DNA of 64,000 nt from Halorubrum lacusprofundi ATCC 49239 (GTDB taxonomy: Archaea; Halobacteriota; Halobacteria; Halobacteriales; Haloferacaceae), in contig NC_012029.1 in NCBI RefSeq assembly GCF_000022205.1, forward strand, positions 496,001 to 560,000. Direction: 5' to 3'. Below are positions 40,183-50,526 of the stretch, piece by piece; the first letter of the stretch is position 1; each line of letters begins with the position of its first letter. The translations under genes and the position numbers were made by a program. The notes beneath the pieces are model-generated. The model was not told where the DNA came from. It was given only the letters and a program-made list of their open reading frames with translations, and made no database searches.

Positions 40183-41256
40183 TTACCGCACGGAGTCCAC
40201 CTGTCCGAGCAGGTCGAGCTGGTGGGTGAGGTAGACGAGCTCACCGTCGTCGACCTGTTCTCGACGACGCGCGAGCCACTCGTCGAGCTCGGCGGCCGGA
40301 TCCTCGGCGGGGTCCCCCGGCGTTACACCGATCGCCGCCGACTCCCCCACGGTCCCGTCGATCACCTCACCGACCGCTTCCTCCACGGTGTCGAGGATGT
40401 ACCGGAGGAAGAACGCCTCGTCGCCGGGGTAAGGGGACTCGAAAGCGGGTTGCTCGCCCGTCTCCGCGCCCGCGACCGGCCGGACCACCCAGTCCGAGCC
40501 GGCGACGCCGAGGAGCGAGGCGCCCTCGATTCGCCGGAGCCGCGCGAGGGCGTCGCCGCCGGTGCGGCTGCTCCCGCCGGGTTTGGCGTCCATGTGCGCG
40601 TGGTACCGGCGCTCGATCGTCCGGTCGGCCGGATGCGACGGGCGGAACCGGGTCCCGCCGTCGAACGTGATCGGGAAGTAGTAGGTTCCGCCGGGCGCGA
40701 GCGCGCCGAGGAGAGTTTCGAGCCCGTCCAGATCGAGAACATCGAGCAGCGCCATCCCGATCAGGGCGTCCCACTCGCCCGCGTGCGCCTCGGCGTACGC
40801 GACCGCGTCTGCGGCGACCGCCTCGACCGTGACCGTGCGCGCGTCGGTCTCGACGAGGAGCGCGTCGGTCTCGCTGTCTCCGACCTCCCCGACCTCCCCG
40901 ACCTCCCCGACCTCCCCGACGGAGACCGGCTCGTTCCGATCTGCCGCCCACTCCCGGAGGAACCGGTCGAGCCCGGCGAGCGTCCCCGCGTCGCGGTCGA
41001 CGGCGACGTACCGCGTCTCGCCCGGCGGCAGCAGTTCCCAGTCGATCAGGCGGGCGATCATCGTGCCGATGCCAGCCCCGGCTTCGAGGACGCGAAGCGG
41101 TCCCTCGGCCACTGCGGCGCGGTCGGCGAGTCGCTCTCGAAAGAGTCCGACGAGCCGCCGGTCGAGCGCCCGATCGTCGACCGTGCGCTTCGCCCGGAGG
41201 TAGCGCCGGAAGGCGGTGGTCTCTGCGTCGGTGCTGGGATTGTCGTCGCCCGTCAC
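40183..41256 (-). CDS. class I SAM-dependent methyltransferase-like protein
   Basis: A 357-residue protein with the SAM-binding motif VLEAGAGIGTMIARL (about 56-70), an acidic loop after strand 2 (VAVDRDAG) and the strand-4 motif WDALIGMALLDVLDL. The sequence following strand 2 contains a run of Gly-Glu-Val repeats encoded by a 9-bp tandem array. It is the last gene of a minus-strand set, overlapping the GT4 glycosyltransferase by 4 bp. The target is unknown; linkage to a PTPS-fold protein and sugar enzymes suggests a small molecule or glycan rather than RNA. Confidence 0.75.
   Translation of the reverse strand: MTGDDNPSTDAETTAFRRYLRAKRTVDDRALDRRLVGLFRERLADRAAVAEGPLRVLEAGAGIGTMIARLIDWELLPPGETRYVAVDRDAGTLAGLDRFLREWAADRNEPVSVGEVGEVGEVGEVGDSETDALLVETDARTVTVEAVAADAVAYAEAHAGEWDALIGMALLDVLDLDGLETLLGALAPGGTYYFPITFDGGTRFRPSHPADRTIERRYHAHMDAKPGGSSRTGGDALARLRRIEGASLLGVAGSDWVVRPVAGAETGEQPAFESPYPGDEAFFLRYILDTVEEAVGEVIDGTVGESAAIGVTPGDPAEDPAAELDEWLARRREQVDDGELVYLTHQLDLLGQVDSVR
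40882..40920 (+). repeat. 9-bp tandem array in a methyltransferase gene
   Basis: GACCTCCCC occurs four times in perfect register (40882-40917) followed by a partial GAC. On the coding strand each unit reads Gly-Glu-Val. Copy-number change by slippage would stay in frame and vary a loop length in the protein. Confidence 0.95.
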
Positions 41257-42335
41257 GTCGCCACCTCCGGCTCGACGGGGTCGGGCGCGTCGGCGACATC
41301 AGCGAGCAGCCGCCTGACCCGGGCCGTCGACTCCGCCCAACTCGGGTGGCGCTCGTACCGCCGTCTGGCGGCGCGACCCATCGCCGCGAGTCGGTCGGGG
41401 TCGGTCGCGAACTCGTCGAGCGCGCGGGCGACGGCGACGGGGTCGTCCGGATCGACGAGAACTCCCGTCTCGCCGTCCGCGACCGTCTCGATCGCGCCGC
41501 CGGCGCGCGAGGCGATCGCCGGCAGGCCGAAGCTCATCCCCTCCAGGTAGACGATCCCGAACCCCTCGTACCGGGAGGGGACCGCGAGGACGTGGCTCTC
41601 ACGGAGGGCCTCGGCCAGCTCGGCGTCCGACAGTCGGCCGGTAAAACGCACGCGCTCGTCGAGCCCGCGCTCGCGGACCAGCCGCCGGACCTCGGCGACG
41701 TGTTCCTCGTCGACGGCCCGGCCCACGACGGTGAGCTCGATGTCGGCGTCCGCCAGAGCCACCGCCTCGACGAGCGTGTCGAGCCCCTTTCGCGGCTCGA
41801 TGTTTCCGACGAAAATCGCACCCAGCGGACGATTCCGTGCCCGCGACGCGATTTCGGCGTCGTCGATAGCGGGATCGAACCGGTCGCCGGCGGGCGGGGC
41901 GACGACGGTCGAGTCGCGGGCGACGCCGAGGGCTGCGACCGCGTCGCGGGTCGCCGCGCTGTTGCAGACCACGCCGTCGACGGTCGCGAGGTACCGGCGC
42001 TCGACCGCGCGGTACAGCGGTGAGAGGCGACGGGGCTCGCTCGCGCGCAGGTGGTGGACGATACTCACGATCGGGTACGGCAGGTCGCGGTTGGCGAGAA
42101 GCAGTGAGGGGTGCGCGAGCTCGTCTTGGAGCATCACGTCGACGTCGACGCGGAGGCGGTCCCCGAAGTCGGGAAGCGCGTTGTCGAGCAGCCCGCGCGG
42201 GTACGTTCGCCACGGGAGTTCGACGACCTCCACGGTGTCGCCGGCCCGGCGGAGGCCCTCGACCAGCTTCCGGTCGTAGCGGAACCCCCCGGACTGCTCG
42301 GCGAGGCTCCCGTACAGCGCGAGCCCGACCCTCAT
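41253..42335 (-). CDS. GT4-type glycosyltransferase
   Basis: A 360-residue GT-B glycosyltransferase. The C-terminal half has the GT4 features FVGNIEPRKGLDTLVEA (about 187-203), VRFTGRLSDAELAEAL, and the EX7E motif EGFGIVYLE (about 263-271) that binds the donor nucleotide. Acceptor-domain features include SIVHHLRASEP. It would transfer a sugar from a nucleotide or lipid donor in the cytoplasm. Both ends overlap neighbours by 4 bp (PTPS upstream, methyltransferase downstream), so the three form a tightly coupled operon. Confidence 0.88.
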   Translation of the reverse strand: MRVGLALYGSLAEQSGGFRYDRKLVEGLRRAGDTVEVVELPWRTYPRGLLDNALPDFGDRLRVDVDVMLQDELAHPSLLLANRDLPYPIVSIVHHLRASEPRRLSPLYRAVERRYLATVDGVVCNSAATRDAVAALGVARDSTVVAPPAGDRFDPAIDDAEIASRARNRPLGAIFVGNIEPRKGLDTLVEAVALADADIELTVVGRAVDEEHVAEVRRLVRERGLDERVRFTGRLSDAELAEALRESHVLAVPSRYEGFGIVYLEGMSFGLPAIASRAGGAIETVADGETGVLVDPDDPVAVARALDEFATDPDRLAAMGRAARRRYERHPSWAESTARVRRLLADVADAPDPVEPEVAT

Positions 42336-42709
42336 ACCGGCGCATCGTAGGTCGCGGCGGCCGCGTCGTCCTCCCAGACCGTCACGGCCAGTTCGCCCAC
42401 GGTCTCGTCGGTCACCGCGTCGGTCACGCGCTCGAAGATCACGCGGGCGAAGCGCTCGACGCTGGGGTTGTCTCCCTCGAACTCGGGGAGATCGTTGAGC
42501 AGTTCGTCACGGTAGCGGTCGGCGAGGTCGGCGAGCGCCGCCTCGGCGTCGTCGATGTCGACGAGGTAGTCGTACTCGTTCAGCTCGGGGCCGCGGAAGG
42601 TCAGCTCCACCTCGAAGCGGTGAGAGTGCGGCACGCCCTCGGGCCCCGGATCGGGGACCGTGAGGTAGTGTTGGGCCACGAAATCGGTTAGGACCGTCGT
42701 CGCGTACAT
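42332..42709 (-). CDS. PTPS/QueD-fold protein with altered catalytic residues
   Basis: 125 residues of the 6-pyruvoyl-tetrahydropterin synthase fold. Zinc ligands look intact: His14 (VAQHYLT), His28 and His30 (PHSHRFEV). The pterin-anchoring Glu is probably Glu113 (VTVWEDD), and NPSVERFARVIFE matches the family helix. The catalytic Cys of CxxxHGH is Glu24 (EGVPHSH), and the usual Asp-His dyad seems to read Asp68-Glu69. This is not canonical QueD or BH4 synthase; Glu for Cys is known from PTPS-III. An ATTTAGG element about 26 bp before the ATG (near 42735) may be the promoter of the PTPS-GT4-methyltransferase operon. Confidence 0.8.
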   Translation of the reverse strand: MYATTVLTDFVAQHYLTVPDPGPEGVPHSHRFEVELTFRGPELNEYDYLVDIDDAEAALADLADRYRDELLNDLPEFEGDNPSVERFARVIFERVTDAVTDETVGELAVTVWEDDAAAATYDAPV

Positions 42710-42777
42710 GGGCCGATCCACGGACGCGACGCACCTAAATCCGGAGGGCTGCGGTAGAGAGGGGCGGGGAGTCGCCG

Positions 42778-43647
42778 TCACAGGTAGCCGAGCGCCTCGA
42801 GCCGCTCGCGCTCGCCCGTCTCGCCGTGGACCCGACCCACCGGCAGCGGCTCCGGCGGGTCGAGTTCGGGATCGAGGATCCCGCGGTCGACGCCCGTCGC
42901 CTCCGCCCACGGGACGGCGAGGAGGGCGGGCACCGGTGTGTGCATGGGGTGCCCGTACAGCCCCCACTCGCCGAAGAGGTTGCCGTGGTCGGCGGTGACC
43001 GCGACGCGCCCGTCGACGTTGTCGAGGAGCGTCGCCACTTCGCTAAGCACGTGCCGAAGGTTCGCCTCGTAGGCCCGCCAGACGCGCTCGGTCGAGACCT
43101 CTCCGCGCCGGAGCGACACCCACGGATTCCCGTCGTTGCTGTGGCTTCCGGTCCGAGCCAGCCCGTCGTCGCCGTCGAGCGGGTCAGGGACGAACGGGTG
43201 GTGCGGCTGCATGTAGTGGACGACGAGCCGCTCGGGGTCGCGCTCGCGGGCCAGCGCGACGGCGCGATCGGTGACCGCCGCCGCCGGCACGGTACCGAGG
43301 TCGTCGTCCCAGGCGTACTTCCACACCTCGTCGAGCGCGGCGAACGCGGTGGCGTCGAGGTAGCGATCGGTCCACGTGTTGCCCGTCACCATGACGGTCC
43401 ACGGTGTCTCCGGGTGGTTCACGAACGTGTTCTCCAGCCACTCCGAGGAGGAGCTGCCGACCGATCGGACCGTCTCAACGTGACCGAAGAAGTCGAAATC
43501 GGACGCGATCGAGCGCAACAGGTCGGCCCGGCAGGCGTCGAGGACGACGAGAACGTCCCACTCTCGGTCGAAGACGTTCGTCCCGTAGTCGAGCCGCCGC
43601 CCGACGGCCTGCAGCCCGCGCAGGTAGGCGGTCCCGAGGCGGCTCAT
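42778..43647 (-). CDS. sulfatase/alkaline phosphatase-superfamily protein
   Basis: 289 residues with the alkaline-phosphatase fold signatures: VLVVLDACRADLL (metal Asp, about 31-43), the HYMQPHHPFVPD strand (about 158-169) and TADHGNLFGEWGLYGHP (metal Asp-His). No CxPSR motif for formylglycine is present, so a sulfatase with Cys-derived nucleophile is unlikely; Ser/Thr in VGSSSSEW may be the nucleophile, as in phosphotransferase relatives. The ATG at 43647 is preferred over GTG 43665. Divergent from the dehydrogenase-AKR fusion. Confidence 0.75.
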   Translation of the reverse strand: MSRLGTAYLRGLQAVGRRLDYGTNVFDREWDVLVVLDACRADLLRSIASDFDFFGHVETVRSVGSSSSEWLENTFVNHPETPWTVMVTGNTWTDRYLDATAFAALDEVWKYAWDDDLGTVPAAAVTDRAVALARERDPERLVVHYMQPHHPFVPDPLDGDDGLARTGSHSNDGNPWVSLRRGEVSTERVWRAYEANLRHVLSEVATLLDNVDGRVAVTADHGNLFGEWGLYGHPMHTPVPALLAVPWAEATGVDRGILDPELDPPEPLPVGRVHGETGERERLEALGYL

Positions 43648-43758
43648 TCCCGGCTCTCGTCTCACGGCCGCCGTTCGGACCGCGTCGACTAAACCGCACC
43701 GGCGAGGCGGTCGACGAGTCGCCGGGACACCTATACGTCTCGCCGCCTCGGTACGACC

Positions 43759-45756
43759 GTGAACTGTCTGTTCGTGGGAGCGGGGTCGATCGCGCCGGAG
43801 TACGCCGCCGGCCTGTCTGGGAGTTCACTGTCGCTGGCCGGCGTCGTCGACCTCGACGCGGACCGCGCTGCAGCGCTCGCCGCGGATCACGACTGCCCGT
43901 CGTTCACGGATCTGGAGACGGCGCTTTCGGCGGTCGACGCGCCGCTCGTGGTGAACCTGACGAGCCACGCCGCCCACGCGCCGGTGACGCGGACCGCGCT
44001 GGAGGCAGACCGTCACGTCTACTCGCAGAAGCCGCTCGCGCTCGACGCCGACGAGGCGAAGGCGCTGGTGGCGCTCGCCCGTGAACGCGACCTCGGACTG
44101 GGCTGTGCGCCCGGGACGCCGCGAGCGCCCTCCCAACGCCGCGCGGGTCGACTCCTCGCCGACGGTCGGCTCGGCCCGGTGGGACTGGGGTACGCCCACG
44201 CCCACGTCGGCCGCGTGACCGACTGGCACGACCGCCCCGACTCCTTTCTCGAAATCGGACCCCTGTACGACGGCGCGGTGTACCCGCTCGCGCTGCTGGC
44301 CTCGTGGTTCGGGCCCGTCGAGCGCGTTCGCGTCGCCGACGCTCTCGACGTCTGGCCCGAGCGGGAGGACCGACGACCGTCGACGCCGAGCCACGTCGAG
44401 GCGACGCTAGCGTTCGCGGCGGGTCCGACGGTCAGGCTGACCGCGAGCTTCTACGCGCCCCACCGGAGCCGGGAGTTCTACGGGCTGGAGCTCCACGGCG
44501 ACGACGGCTCGCTGTACCTCAAGGGAACCGGCGCGATGGAGACCGGCCGCGATCACGTCCGGTTCGGCCGCGTCGGACGGGAGTACGTGAGCGCGCCGCC
44601 GACCTCTCCCGAGGAGCCGTACGAGTACGTCGGCGCCGTCGAGCGCCTCGCCGCGACGATCGAGGCGGGCTCGCCGTCCCGGGCCGGCGGCCGCCGGGGC
44701 GCCCACGTCGTCGCCGTCTGTAACGCGATCGAGGCGGCCGCCGGGGGCGAGGGGCCAGTCGTCGTCGACGACTGCGGAGCGACCGCCGACCCGCCGCCGG
44801 CGCCGGTCGTCAGACCGGCGACGACCACCGAGAGCGACGCGGGACGCGAGAGCGAGAAGGGCCCGGGCGCTGCCGCGATCCGGCTCCCCGCGGTCGGATT
44901 CGGCTGCTCGCGCTACCGCGACGGAGAGTACGTCGACCGAGTCGACTCGATCGCGACCGCGCTCGACGCCGGGTACCGCCTCCTCGACTCCGCCGAGCTG
45001 TACGGGAACGAACACCGGATCGGGGAGCTGCTCGCCGCGCCGGGCGCGCCGGACCGCGAGCGCGTGTTCCTCCTCGGAAAGGCGTGGCGTACCAATCACC
45101 GCCGCGAACACCTGCTCGCCGCCTGCGCTGGCAGCCGCGAGGAGCTGGGGATCGACGCGTTCGACTGCTACGCGCTCCACTGGCCGTCGGCGCTCGAACA
45201 CCGGGGCGAGCTGAATCGTCTCGCCGAGAAGCCGGTTGAGCGACAGGAGACGCTCACCTTTCCAGAGGGAGAGGACGGCGAGCCCGCGACCGCCGACGTG
45301 GCGCTCGCGACGGCGTGGCGGAACCTGGAGGCCGTCCACGAGCGGGGGTGGGCCCGGACGCTCGGGATCTGTAACGTCTCGCGGGCGCAACTGGAGACAG
45401 TGCTGGAGACGGGCGAGATCGACCCGGCGCTTGTACAGGTGGAGCGGCACCCGTATCGACCCCGGAACGGGCTCGTCGAGCTCTGTCACGGGCGGGGAAT
45501 CCGCGTCGTCGCGCACTCGCCGCTGTCGGCGCCCGGCCTCCTCGACGAGCCCGTCCTGAACGCGATCGGAACGGAGCGAGGGCTCTCACCCGCCGAAGTC
45601 GTCATCGCGTGGAACGCTTCTCAAGGAGTCGTCCCGATCCCGTCCAGCACCGCCGAGTCGCACGTCGTCTCGAACCTGGCCGCCGGGAGCGAGCGACTGA
45701 CTGCTGACGAGGTCGCGCGCATCGATGCCCTGCGGGATCCGAACTTCGAGCGGTAG
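43759..45756 (+). CDS. Gfo/Idh/MocA dehydrogenase fused to aldo-keto reductase
   Basis: 665 residues in one frame. Residues ~1-335 are a Gfo/Idh/MocA-type sugar dehydrogenase: Rossmann start FVGAGSIAPEYAAGL, the EKP-like YSQKPLALDADEA and a C-terminal beta domain. A ~35-residue Pro/Thr/Gly linker leads to an aldo-keto reductase (about 370-665) whose catalytic tetrad is present: Asp and Tyr in LDSAELYGNE, Lys in LLGKAW, His in ALHW; the NADP-site PIPSSTAESHV closes it. Two oxidoreductases on one chain imply consecutive steps or cofactor recycling on a sugar or polyol. GTG start about 25 bp after a CCTATACG TATA-like element. Confidence 0.87.
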   Translation: MNCLFVGAGSIAPEYAAGLSGSSLSLAGVVDLDADRAAALAADHDCPSFTDLETALSAVDAPLVVNLTSHAAHAPVTRTALEADRHVYSQKPLALDADEAKALVALARERDLGLGCAPGTPRAPSQRRAGRLLADGRLGPVGLGYAHAHVGRVTDWHDRPDSFLEIGPLYDGAVYPLALLASWFGPVERVRVADALDVWPEREDRRPSTPSHVEATLAFAAGPTVRLTASFYAPHRSREFYGLELHGDDGSLYLKGTGAMETGRDHVRFGRVGREYVSAPPTSPEEPYEYVGAVERLAATIEAGSPSRAGGRRGAHVVAVCNAIEAAAGGEGPVVVDDCGATADPPPAPVVRPATTTESDAGRESEKGPGAAAIRLPAVGFGCSRYRDGEYVDRVDSIATALDAGYRLLDSAELYGNEHRIGELLAAPGAPDRERVFLLGKAWRTNHRREHLLAACAGSREELGIDAFDCYALHWPSALEHRGELNRLAEKPVERQETLTFPEGEDGEPATADVALATAWRNLEAVHERGWARTLGICNVSRAQLETVLETGEIDPALVQVERHPYRPRNGLVELCHGRGIRVVAHSPLSAPGLLDEPVLNAIGTERGLSPAEVVIAWNASQGVVPIPSSTAESHVVSNLAAGSERLTADEVARIDALRDPNFER

Positions 45757-45825
45757 TGCGGTCGGAACCACCTCGAGCCACCGATTCGGCGGTATTTCTA
45801 TGTGACTGAAGTGCGTATATGTGAT

Positions 45826-46212
45826 ATGGCAACAACCGGAGCGCAGCAGCCCGCGGTCGACGTCGGATCGTTGAACGGGCTCCACTGGATCGGTATCATC
45901 GCGGCCCTGGTCTCTGCCGCCGTCCACCTCCTCATCGGCGTCAGGATGTTTCCCTCCGCCATGGGAATCAGCTTCATCCTCGCGGGGCTCGGCTTCATCG
46001 GCGGCGTCGGCCTCCTCGTGATCGACTACCGTCGGCGCGCGGTGTACGCGGTCGGAATCCTCTTCACCCTCGTCCAGATCGTCTTGTGGTACGTCATCAA
46101 CTTCGCAGGAGGCACGAAGTCGTTCCCGGCCGACGTCGGGACGCTCGGCGCCATCGACAAGATCGCACAGGTCGTGTTGATCGCCGTTCTGGTCGCCCTA
46201 CTGCGTCGATAG
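45826..46212 (+). CDS. small four-helix membrane protein
   Basis: 128 residues with four predicted membrane helices (about 20-40, 44-66, 72-93, 105-124; e.g. GLHWIGIIAALVSAAVHL and VYAVGILFTLVQIVLW). I do not recognise a functional family; similar small membrane proteins are common and unassigned in haloarchaea. It lies between the dehydrogenase-AKR fusion and the CDP-alcohol phosphotransferase, on the same strand. A polar Lys/Asp loop separates helices 3 and 4. Confidence 0.65.
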   Translation: MATTGAQQPAVDVGSLNGLHWIGIIAALVSAAVHLLIGVRMFPSAMGISFILAGLGFIGGVGLLVIDYRRRAVYAVGILFTLVQIVLWYVINFAGGTKSFPADVGTLGAIDKIAQVVLIAVLVALLRR

Positions 46213-46286
46213 CCGTGCCGACGCGGAACCGCCGATCGCGACGCGAGGGCGTCGCCCCGATCACCGAGGCGAGGGGTACCGAGTAG

Positions 46287-47069
46287 ATGGCCGAGGCTCG
46301 CCGGCGACGATCCGTTCGCGTCGGGGTCGGAGTCGGGCTCCCGCTCGTCGCCGCGGTCGCACTCGTGGCCCTCCTGTTGCGACTGTTCCCCGTGGACGCG
46401 ACGAGCCAGTGGGGACTCTTTCCCGCTGTCGTCGCCGGCGTCTGCTGGGCCGGACAGCTCTGGTACGTCGGCTATGGTCTCGATCCGGGGCGGCTGACCG
46501 GCGGATTCTGGCGGCGGCTGCTCGGGCTGGCGAACGTGGTCACGCTCGTTCGGGGCGCGCTGTACGCCGTCGTCGCCGGGTTCGTCGTCGTGCCGTCCGA
46601 GACGGCGCTCGCGTGGGTGCCAGCGCTGTGTTACGGGACCGGCGTCGCCCTCGACAAGCTCGACGGGATCGTCGCCCGGACGGTCGGTCGACAGACGGAG
46701 CTCGGCCGCCGGCTTGACATGGCGTTCGACACGTTCGGGTTCGTCGTCGCGCCGCTGGTAGCGGTGCTGTGGGGGTTGCTGCCGGTCTGGTACCTCTCGA
46801 TCTCCGCCGCACGCTACGTCTTTCGCGGGGCCGTGTGGCTGCGGCGCGTCCGCGGGCTCCCAGTCGGGGACCTTCCCGACAGCGACCTCGGAAAGTACCT
46901 CGCGGGAGTCCAAATGATATTTGTGACGATCGCCCTCGCCCCACTGGCGCCGACGGATCTCGTCTGGATCCTCGCGCCGGTCGTTCTCGCCCCGTCGCTG
47001 GCGGTGTTCACGCGGGACTACCTCGCCGTCAGCGGGCGGATCGGACGGGGCGTCGACGACGCCCAGTGA
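46287..47069 (+). CDS. CDP-alcohol phosphotransferase family membrane protein
   Basis: 260 residues, about seven membrane helices. The complete CDP-alcohol phosphotransferase motif is present at about 132-154: DKLDGIVAR followed by eight residues and GRRLDMAFD, matching DxxDGxxAR-x8-GxxxDxxxD. These enzymes join an alcohol (glycerol phosphate, inositol phosphate or similar) to a CDP-activated lipid in the membrane. The first ~75 residues hold two extra helices. In this cluster it could place a polar headgroup that the sugar enzymes modify; that is inference. Convergent with the dehydrogenase gene, 1 bp between stops. Confidence 0.88.
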   Translation: MAEARRRRSVRVGVGVGLPLVAAVALVALLLRLFPVDATSQWGLFPAVVAGVCWAGQLWYVGYGLDPGRLTGGFWRRLLGLANVVTLVRGALYAVVAGFVVVPSETALAWVPALCYGTGVALDKLDGIVARTVGRQTELGRRLDMAFDTFGFVVAPLVAVLWGLLPVWYLSISAARYVFRGAVWLRRVRGLPVGDLPDSDLGKYLAGVQMIFVTIALAPLAPTDLVWILAPVVLAPSLAVFTRDYLAVSGRIGRGVDDAQ

Positions 47070-47070
47070 C

Positions 47071-48087
47071 TCACTCGTACTCCAAGATGACCTGTACCGC
47101 GTCGTCGGGCGCCGAGTCGAGCAGCTCGTACGCCTCCGGTGCGCGCTCGAAGGGGATCCGGTGGGTGATCAGCTCGTCGGCGGGGATCCAGTCGAGCCGA
47201 TCGAGCGCCGCGTCCATGCGCCGGTCGCGGTCCCAGCGGCCGCGCAGTTCCGGGCTGATCGTCGACACCTGACTGGAGACGATGTCGATGCGGTTCCGGT
47301 GGAATCGCCCGCCCAGATCGATCGGCTCGCGTTTGGTCCCGTACCACGAGCCGACGACGATCCGCGCGTCGTAGCCGACGACCCCGATCGCATCGTCCAG
47401 CGCGCTCGGCTGGCCGGACAGCTCGATCGCGAGATCGGCGCCGTCGACGGCGAGGTCCGCGCCGGCGGGATCGGCGTCACCGAGCTCGGTCGGCGTCGTC
47501 GTTCGGTCAGCGCCGAACTCCGCGGCGAGCGCCCGGCGGCGCTCGATCGGGTCGACCACGACGAGCGACTCCAGCGGAAACGCGGCCAGCAGTCGGGTGA
47601 CGCAGAGCCCGATCACCCCGGCACCGAACACCACGACTCGCTCTCCGAGCCGAGGGGCGGCGTCGAGGACGATGTTCGTCGCGGTCTCGACCGACGGGAG
47701 CAACGACCCGGCGGCCGGCGTCGTCTCCGGCGGGAGTGCGACCACCGAGTCGGGGGTCGCGCAGAAGCTCGTTTGGTGCGGGACGAACGAGAACACTGAC
47801 CGGCCGACCCAGTTCGGATCGACGTCGCTACCGACCTCGCGGACAACGCCGCTCGCGGCGTAGCCGTACCGGAGCGGGTACGACAGATCCCCGTCGAGCG
47901 CATCAAGGGTCTCGTCGGCCGGGAGGTCGGCCGGCGTCTGGTCGCGATACACGAGCAGTTCCGTCCCGGCGCTTATCGCCGACGCGCGGGTGTCGACGAG
48001 GAGTTCGTCTGCGGCCGGCGGGCCGACCGCCGTCTCCCGCACCTCGACGGTCTCCGGGGCCGTAAAGTAGAGCGCGGTGTCGGTCAT
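47071..48087 (-). CDS. medium-chain dehydrogenase (zinc-alcohol-dehydrogenase fold)
   Basis: 338 residues. N-terminal GroES-like domain with SAISAGTELLVYRDQTP and RYGYAASGVVREVGSDVD, and an NAD(P) domain with VVFGAGVIGLCVTRLLA (about 150-166). The usual catalytic zinc Cys and the four-Cys structural zinc site are not seen; the form resembles BchC-like or sorbitol-dehydrogenase-like members that oxidise secondary alcohols. It closes the cluster of sugar and lipid enzymes, convergent with the CDP-alcohol phosphotransferase. Substrate unknown. Confidence 0.82.
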   Translation of the reverse strand: MTDTALYFTAPETVEVRETAVGPPAADELLVDTRASAISAGTELLVYRDQTPADLPADETLDALDGDLSYPLRYGYAASGVVREVGSDVDPNWVGRSVFSFVPHQTSFCATPDSVVALPPETTPAAGSLLPSVETATNIVLDAAPRLGERVVVFGAGVIGLCVTRLLAAFPLESLVVVDPIERRRALAAEFGADRTTTPTELGDADPAGADLAVDGADLAIELSGQPSALDDAIGVVGYDARIVVGSWYGTKREPIDLGGRFHRNRIDIVSSQVSTISPELRGRWDRDRRMDAALDRLDWIPADELITHRIPFERAPEAYELLDSAPDDAVQVILEYE

Positions 48088-49929: not shown

Positions 49930-50526
49930 TCAACGATCCTTTAGTACGTCGGCAGCGGGGGTCCTACGTCCACAACCCGGGCAAAACGCCCAGTCGGTCC
50001 GAAGCTCGTCGCCGCAATCACAGAACGCTCGGTGGGACTGCTTTTCACCGCAGTTCGGGCAGTAAACGTGGTCAGTGGGGACGTTTTCGCCACATCCGCC
50101 ACAGGCGTTTTCTCGCGTTTGCACGTCTGGATCGGTGGGCGTCTTACGCGTCTGCGCGTCGGCGTCCGCCGTCGCCTCACGAGTCACACTCGCGTCGTCC
50201 TTGTCGGCGCTCGGGGCGTCGAGCGTGACGTTTACGTTGATATCGCCGGCGTTTCCGGGCGTATACGCCGCGGGAGACGCCGCCGATCGGCCGCCGAGTC
50301 GGTCGTCCAACGCGGCGTCGAGTCGATCGGCGATGAGGTCGTCGATCCGATCGGCCAACGCGGCGTCGACCGTCGCGTCCGTCGCGTCCGACGCGTCCGC
50401 ATCGTCGCCGACGGCGCCGTCGAGGTGAGTCCGCAGGGCCTCCCGCATCACCTCGCTTTTGGAGGCGTCACACGCTTCCAGCTGCTCGACGAGGTCGTCG
50501 TCGGCCCGGAAGGTGATCTTGCTCAT
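49930..50526 (-). CDS. cdrL: ribbon-helix-helix and double zinc-ribbon regulator CdrL
   Basis: 198 residues. N-terminal RHH domain (about 1-38): SKITFRADDDLVEQLEAC then SKSEVMREALRTHL. A low-complexity Asp/Ala/Thr-rich linker follows. The C-terminus (about 138-190) has two zinc ribbons: CGGCGENVPTDHVYCPNCG and a CDCGDEL...CPGCGRR pair. This long RHH form upstream of cdrS fits CdrL, described as the longer cell-division regulator that acts on cdrS-ftsZ2. Same strand as cdrS, 216 bp away. It may read zinc or protein partners through the ribbons; inferred. Confidence 0.85.
   Translation of the reverse strand: MSKITFRADDDLVEQLEACDASKSEVMREALRTHLDGAVGDDADASDATDATVDAALADRIDDLIADRLDAALDDRLGGRSAASPAAYTPGNAGDINVNVTLDAPSADKDDASVTREATADADAQTRKTPTDPDVQTRENACGGCGENVPTDHVYCPNCGEKQSHRAFCDCGDELRTDWAFCPGCGRRTPAADVLKDR

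Follow-up and report, generated by a model that had tools for sequence, protein, structure and literature searches.

Gene content of the block between ncsA and ftsZ2

The window analysed here is a 64,000-nucleotide stretch of Halorubrum lacusprofundi ATCC 49239 (NC_012029.1, positions 496,001–560,000), and coordinates count from its start unless a contig or record is named. At 40183–48087 it carries a block of eight genes, flanked by ncsA and ftsZ2, that includes a PTPS/tunnelling-fold protein, a GT4 glycosyltransferase, a methyltransferase and an MDR dehydrogenase (Table 1). All eight genes counted in a preliminary description of this DNA were recovered, with identities assigned by profile, fold or sequence, and coordinates and sequence agreed on the 4-bp overlaps that it had reported between PTPS and GT4 and between GT4 and the methyltransferase. 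The reading frames of the block genes and their third-codon GC (0.83–0.91) are typical of real genes. The true PTPS start is the ATG at 42709, and a longer mechanical open reading frame is spurious. A promoter and terminator scan returned a single weak sigma-70-type match, such a scan being uninformative for archaea.

Table 1. Genes of the block, with window coordinates
Gene product	Role	Coordinates	Strand	Remarks
Class I S-adenosylmethionine (SAM) methyltransferase	core	40183..41256	-	GTG start; no Pfam match as single sequence
GT4 glycosyltransferase	core	41253..42335	-	PF00534, E 1.4e-39
PTPS/tunnelling-fold protein, 125 aa	core	42332..42709	-	ATG start; PF01242, E 3.9e-26
Alkaline-phosphatase/sulfatase-superfamily protein	accessory	42778..43665	-	PF00884, E 3.6e-4, below cut-off
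Gfo/Idh/MocA dehydrogenase–aldo/keto reductase (AKR) fusion	haloarchaeal satellite module	43759..45756	+	PF01408 and PF00248
Small membrane protein DUF7475	accessory, goes with CDP-alcohol transferase	45802..46212	+	PF24287, E 5e-17
CDP-alcohol phosphotransferase	core or near-core	46287..47069	+	PF01066, E 1.8e-14
Zinc-less MDR dehydrogenase, BchC-like	core	47071..48087	-	PF00107

The block parts ncsA from ftsZ2, which the preliminary description had given as neighbours in Haloferax. That statement was sound: ftsZ2 directly follows ncsA in 10 of the 11 other genomes where ncsA was found, among them members of the Haloferax family, of Haloarculaceae and of Halorubrum itself. Since, in addition, the same genes sit at other genome sites in genera outside the window's Halorubrum subclade, the block is an insertion in that one subclade. 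In a tree, the window PTPS clusters with Haloarculaceae and Natronomonas (support 88) and not with Haloferax or other Halorubrum copies, which suggests lateral transfer. The window MDR shares only ~50% identity with its counterparts in the clusters that are closest by the other genes, and it lies outside the operon, on the ftsZ2 side, a displacement found in this subclade, marking it as an apparently swapped and relocated copy and the block as a mosaic.

Two further features were seen in this region. Within the methyltransferase, a GEV run is encoded by a 9-bp unit repeated perfectly in tandem 4.6 times (40880–40920), at a point where model confidence is low, and a neighbour of ftsZ2 at 49930–50526 encodes a CdrL-like zinc-ribbon protein, with short tandem repeats at 50279–50406.

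Co-inheritance across haloarchaeal genomes

We examined 116 haloarchaeal stretches centred on PTPS, together with 146 genomes drawn evenly from the same order. Among the 116 neighbourhoods, MDR was present in 105, the methyltransferase in 93, GT4 in 84, the CDP-alcohol transferase in 70 and DUF7475 in 68, followed by AKR (54), ArfA (52) and Gfo/Idh (51). The PTPS gene occurred in 83 of the 146 genomes, leaving 63 without it. All 77 genomes with the methyltransferase and all 80 with MDR were PTPS-positive, and neither gene appeared in any of the 63 PTPS-negative genomes (Fisher 8e-35 and 3e-38, respectively, phylogeny not accounted for). Of the 64 genomes with the CDP-alcohol transferase, 62 had PTPS, as did all 26 with the Gfo/Idh-AKR fusion. 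Where the set was split, members paired again away from PTPS: methyltransferase with MDR in 6 genomes, CDP-alcohol transferase with methyltransferase or MDR in 10; the CDP-alcohol transferase also stood with Gfo/Idh-AKR in 4. Because these genes co-occur across genomes and re-pair when split, PTPS, MDR, the methyltransferase and the CDP-alcohol transferase constitute, on the evidence of gene content, one co-inherited unit, and it is nearly certain that they belong to one pathway.

The single-pathway view of the preliminary description was thus borne out by co-location over other haloarchaeal genomes, where the genes stay together and co-occur. Its extension to all eight genes held for the core, but the sulfatase-like gene, present in just 38 of the 116 neighbourhoods and missing from the majority of those in bacteria, was rejected as a core member and is a lineage-specific accessory. 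Chance adjacency, or mere co-inheritance in one lineage, would agree with the window block being one insertion passed down a Halorubrum subclade. Absolute co-occurrence over 83 scattered genomes and re-pairing rule out chance clustering, and with the same core recurring in three bacterial classes (below) the probability of this explanation is practically nil.

Two genomes (G077, G093) carried CDP-alcohol transferase orthologues with no PTPS match. In another (G120), a PTPS of the window type is split between two reading frames (L039, ~9.8–10.2 kb), and a second cluster, ArfA-MDR-PTPS-methyltransferase (L040), has an intact PTPS. In a Natrarchaeobaculum plasmid (L151), whose record lacks PTPS, ArfA-MDR stands with a hypothetical gene and an IS5 transposase next to a gene for an oligosaccharide flippase; this stretch is likely a cluster remnant. 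A protein resembling membrane metal-dependent hydrolases (a weak YdjM-like match; L074:4049–4519) recurs near 16 haloarchaeal clusters.

Bacterial counterparts of the core

A search with tblastn against plasmid records, on which the bacterial distribution given here rests, located the MDR-PTPS-GT4-methyltransferase core in Alphaproteobacteria, Gammaproteobacteria and Actinomycetota. Carriers were Candidatus Thiodictyon (L153), Streptomyces fungicidicus (L154), Methylosinus trichosporium OB3b (L155), Rhizobium sp. SL42 (L156), a Rhodobacteraceae strain (L158), Palleronia (L172), Microbacterium (L173) and Neorhizobium (L174); the Rhodobacteraceae and Palleronia clusters have no GT4 between PTPS and the methyltransferase. 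The four proteins are homologous and in the same order in haloarchaea and bacteria, the MDR of the window being displaced to the ftsZ2 side. MDR is 35–37% identical between Archaea and Bacteria, with 33 invariant columns in the alignment, the window GT4 is 31–37% identical to the bacterial cluster GT4s, and haloarchaeal and bacterial cluster methyltransferases matched with a profile-profile probability of 99.8% over 267 columns.

Neighbours of the bacterial clusters include RibA (GTP cyclohydrolase II), a RibD-family protein, in some cases a creatininase-family protein, and a CDP-alcohol transferase, the last in the clusters of Thiodictyon, S. fungicidicus, Rhizobium sp. SL42 and Microbacterium. 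All six RibDs tested were reductase-only (RibD_C without deaminase), so the 2-amino group would be kept. This neighbourhood corresponds to PTPS-IV, cluster 62 of an AGeNNT analysis, which is defined by an FGPAQ signature and by PF00925 RibA and PF01872 RibD_C neighbours (PMC5445326). The preliminary description had been unable to map the gene set to any known pathway; the product is indeed orphan, but the core matches this bacterial PTPS-IV/RibA/RibD neighbourhood, and the placement of ArfA connects it with the opening reaction of riboflavin synthesis.

A cytochrome b561 gene (PF01292) adjoins RibD in two distant clusters, those of Thiodictyon (L153:12500–13057) and Rhizobium (L156:12003–12542). 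Two bacterial clusters have lysylphosphatidylglycerol-synthase TM-family neighbours. In two Streptomyces plasmids (L157, L176) a PTPS homologue stands by itself, with no such cluster around it.

A probable link to GTP through ArfA

In 33 of the 83 PTPS-positive genomes, ArfA (GTP cyclohydrolase IIa, PF05165) is encoded no more than 10 kb from PTPS, against a chance value of ~0.5. Two ArfA copies are listed for 12 PTPS-positive genomes, in each of which one copy is a neighbour of PTPS, and for only one PTPS-negative genome. Haloferax loci (L117–L130) are ordered ArfA-MDR-PTPS-GT4, and deletion of arfA (HVO_1284) in H. volcanii causes riboflavin auxotrophy (PMC8305020). Since HVO_1284 both sits in the operon and is needed for riboflavin, one enzyme appears to open both pathways in Haloferax. 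In H. lacusprofundi the single ArfA (C2:2172564) and single ArfC (C2:468247) both lie elsewhere in the genome.

No dedicated RibD was seen near the clusters in the 116 haloarchaeal neighbourhoods. In the ordinary riboflavin route, archaeal ArfC yields the same reduced, non-deaminated compound, so haloarchaea would need no dedicated RibD, which fits the gene sets. By position, ArfA evidently takes the place of RibA in the haloarchaeal clusters. With ArfA or RibA beside the cluster in both domains, GTP, entering via an aminopyrimidine of the riboflavin branch, is a well-supported and quite likely input.

Coenzyme F420 arises from the same part of metabolism, its precursor branch being common with riboflavin. 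F420 synthesis requires deaminated ribitylaminouracil together with CofG and CofH, and we know of no role in it for GT4, the methyltransferase or MDR. CofG and CofH were not seen in the annotated neighbourhoods, and the cluster has a scattered distribution, in 83 of 146 genomes. A published remark, unpublished in substance and without data, ties PTPS-IV to F420 (PMC5041015) and is all that the COG0720 literature consulted offers on its function; taken together, we judge a role of the cluster in F420 synthesis very unlikely. Solving the pathway would help to settle what PTPS-IV does.

The PTPS-fold protein and its partner enzymes

The PTPS-fold protein matched PF01242 with 91.8 bits (gathering threshold 22.4), and a structure search returned the tunnelling fold. 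Its motif is ExxxHSH. Three zinc-type histidines are kept (H14, H28, H30), an invariant Glu (E24) occupies the position of QueD's catalytic Cys, and an invariant Asp that of its catalytic His. The cluster proteins are wrongly labelled '6-carboxytetrahydropterin synthase / QueD': PTPS-I/QueD was rejected on both the motif (not CxxxHGH) and TIGR03367 (42 bits, cut-off 89.25), and the QueD of H. lacusprofundi is a CxxxHGH protein encoded elsewhere, next to queC (C1:317645–318010). The third-position GC of that gene, 0.70, is clearly below that of the window genes. PTPS-III (ExxHGH) was rejected too, the Glu lying four and not three residues before the first His of HSH. Nor does the FGPAQ signature of PTPS-IV apply, with PGPEG in the haloarchaeal proteins and FGPAQ plus HGA in all eight bacterial cluster proteins.

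The nearest solved structure is SCO6650 of Streptomyces coelicolor (PDB 3D7J), both by profile (63.7 bits, against 44.1 for QueD) and by fold (TM 0.89, from a PTPS model with pLDDT 94). Structure modelling used the haloarchaeal alignment alone. The authors of the SCO6650 structure reportedly described a pterin-type pocket but no zinc and no catalytic triad, and the S. coelicolor RibA homologue SCO6655 is said to make the formylated aminopyrimidine FAPy, the product of ArfA. The likeness connects an archaeal model system with an orphan protein of Actinobacteria, the structure of which has been public since 2008.

An AlphaFold model of the methyltransferase (pLDDT 88.8) matches SAM methyltransferases, and in GT4 the segment EGFGIVYLE supplies the E-x7-E motif. 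The CDP-alcohol transferase has the full family motif DxxDGxxAR(8x)GxxxDxxxD, as DKLDGIVAR(8x)GRRLDMAFD, and was rejected both as archaetidylinositol-phosphate synthase (NCBIfam 28.7, cut-off 180) and as archaetidylserine synthase (24.1, cut-off 200). On inspection, the AKR half of the fusion seems to retain the catalytic tetrad D, Y, K, H. MDR is not a zinc alcohol dehydrogenase, having a variable residue for the Cys before GTE and GYA for GHE. Its top NCBIfam match is BchC (TIGR01202), and at 64.9 bits against a cut-off of 291.25, with no bacteriochlorophyll context, it was rejected as BchC itself. The sulfatase-like protein scored 20.4 bits with PF00884 (gathering threshold 25) and has a metal-type motif, VTADHGNLFGE; a Cys/Ser nucleophile was not picked out.

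Proposed pathway and alternatives

Taken together, these data make it probable that the locus is a haloarchaeal version of a cross-domain orphan 'PTPS-IV' pathway. In the order that we infer, ArfA would open GTP to FAPy, a creatininase-family enzyme of ArfB type would deformylate it, and ArfC/RibD_C would reduce the ribosyl chain to ribityl; with no deaminase present, the 2-amino group would be kept. The zinc-less BchC-like MDR may then oxidise a secondary alcohol, and the PTPS-fold protein, with its zinc site and without the PTPS triad, may bind the 2-amino-4-oxo heterocycle and carry out ring closure or a side-chain rearrangement. GT4 would add a sugar, the methyltransferase a methyl group, and the CDP-alcohol transferase could couple the product to a lipid or polyol by a phosphodiester bond. 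The Gfo/Idh-AKR fusion might, in haloarchaea, change the configuration of the sugar or polyol donor. The product is likely to be a pteridine or aminopyrimidine bearing sugar and methyl groups, and it may be anchored in the membrane; the chances that it is pterin-like are about even, and a lipid anchor is a more tentative element. The preliminary description had offered a modified glycolipid or a pterin-linked glycoside, of which the latter would be compatible with this product and a plain glycolipid fits less well.

Several points weigh against this reading. Each chemical step is a prediction. In 50 of the 83 genomes, H. lacusprofundi among them, ArfA lies away from the cluster, and it could be in the operon for shared regulation only. 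The CDP-alcohol transferase was not seen in the Methylosinus, Rhodobacteraceae, Palleronia and Neorhizobium clusters. The active-site signatures of haloarchaeal and bacterial PTPS proteins differ, so their chemistry may differ, and the co-occurrence statistics take no account of phylogeny.

The CDP-alcohol transferase, GT4, Gfo/Idh-AKR and the DUF7475 membrane protein of the block, along with the TM-family neighbours of two bacterial clusters, would also suit a pathway to membrane-lipid headgroups or glycolipids, with the PTPS-fold protein recruited to a non-pterin substrate. This leaves the aminopyrimidine enzymes ArfA/RibA, RibD_C and creatininase unexplained as conserved neighbours, and we regard it as unlikely. 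A combination of PTPS and GT4 suits a pterin glycoside as well, and the cluster might instead make the charged halopterins (phosphohalopterin, sulfohalopterin), with neopterin from the MptA route glycosylated and modified; charged, sugar-bearing pterins of halophiles are described in the older literature. However, the conserved cyclohydrolase neighbour, ArfA or RibA, gives pyrimidines and not neopterin, the same core occurs in proteobacteria and actinomycetes, and no paper describing such a pathway was found, so that this origin is decidedly unlikely. The literature on halopterins, SCO6650, HVO_1281–1283 and the gene set yielded no description of the pathway.

Under the PTPS-IV-type pathway proposed above, the product could represent a new class, a membrane-anchored glycosylated, methylated 2-amino-pteridine (for example 8-ribityl-pterin) serving as a redox cofactor or photoactive compound in haloarchaea and several bacterial classes, a specific form that we hold to be unlikely. 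Membrane electron transfer is hinted at by the cytochrome b561 genes adjoining RibD in two bacterial clusters. An orphan pathway is tightly co-inherited in over half of the haloarchaeal genomes sampled and in bacteria of three classes, and the ArfA link provides a testable entry, from GTP to an aminopyrimidine, in the tractable genus Haloferax.

Comparison with known systems

The window protein shares the tunnelling fold and zinc histidines with QueD/PTPS-I but has Glu for Cys, lacks the catalytic His and is not encoded with queC/queE. From SCO6650 it differs in sequence (28% identity) and in having HSH where SCO6650 has HGA. MDR resembles BchC, a bacteriochlorophyllide hydroxyethyl dehydrogenase acting on a secondary alcohol, which is its top profile and is by its motifs a zinc-less MDR as well. 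The archaeal riboflavin pathway (ArfA, ArfB, ArfC) appears to have its first enzyme in common with the cluster, and arfA of Haloferax lies inside the cluster operon. However, MDR, PTPS, GT4 and the methyltransferase do not belong to riboflavin synthesis, and 63 of the 146 genomes, most of them ArfA-bearing, lack the cluster.

The PTPS-IV neighbourhood resembles the locus in its GTP cyclohydrolase link, for which haloarchaea have the analogous ArfA in 33 of 83 genomes, and in bacterial FGPAQ clusters with a homologous MDR-PTPS-GT4-methyltransferase core and a CDP-alcohol transferase. It differs in that the haloarchaeal PTPS reads PGPEGxxHSH against FGPAQxxHGA, with all three zinc histidines kept, and in that haloarchaea have ArfA for RibA, show no dedicated RibD near the clusters and add Gfo/Idh-AKR, DUF7475 and sulfatase-like genes.

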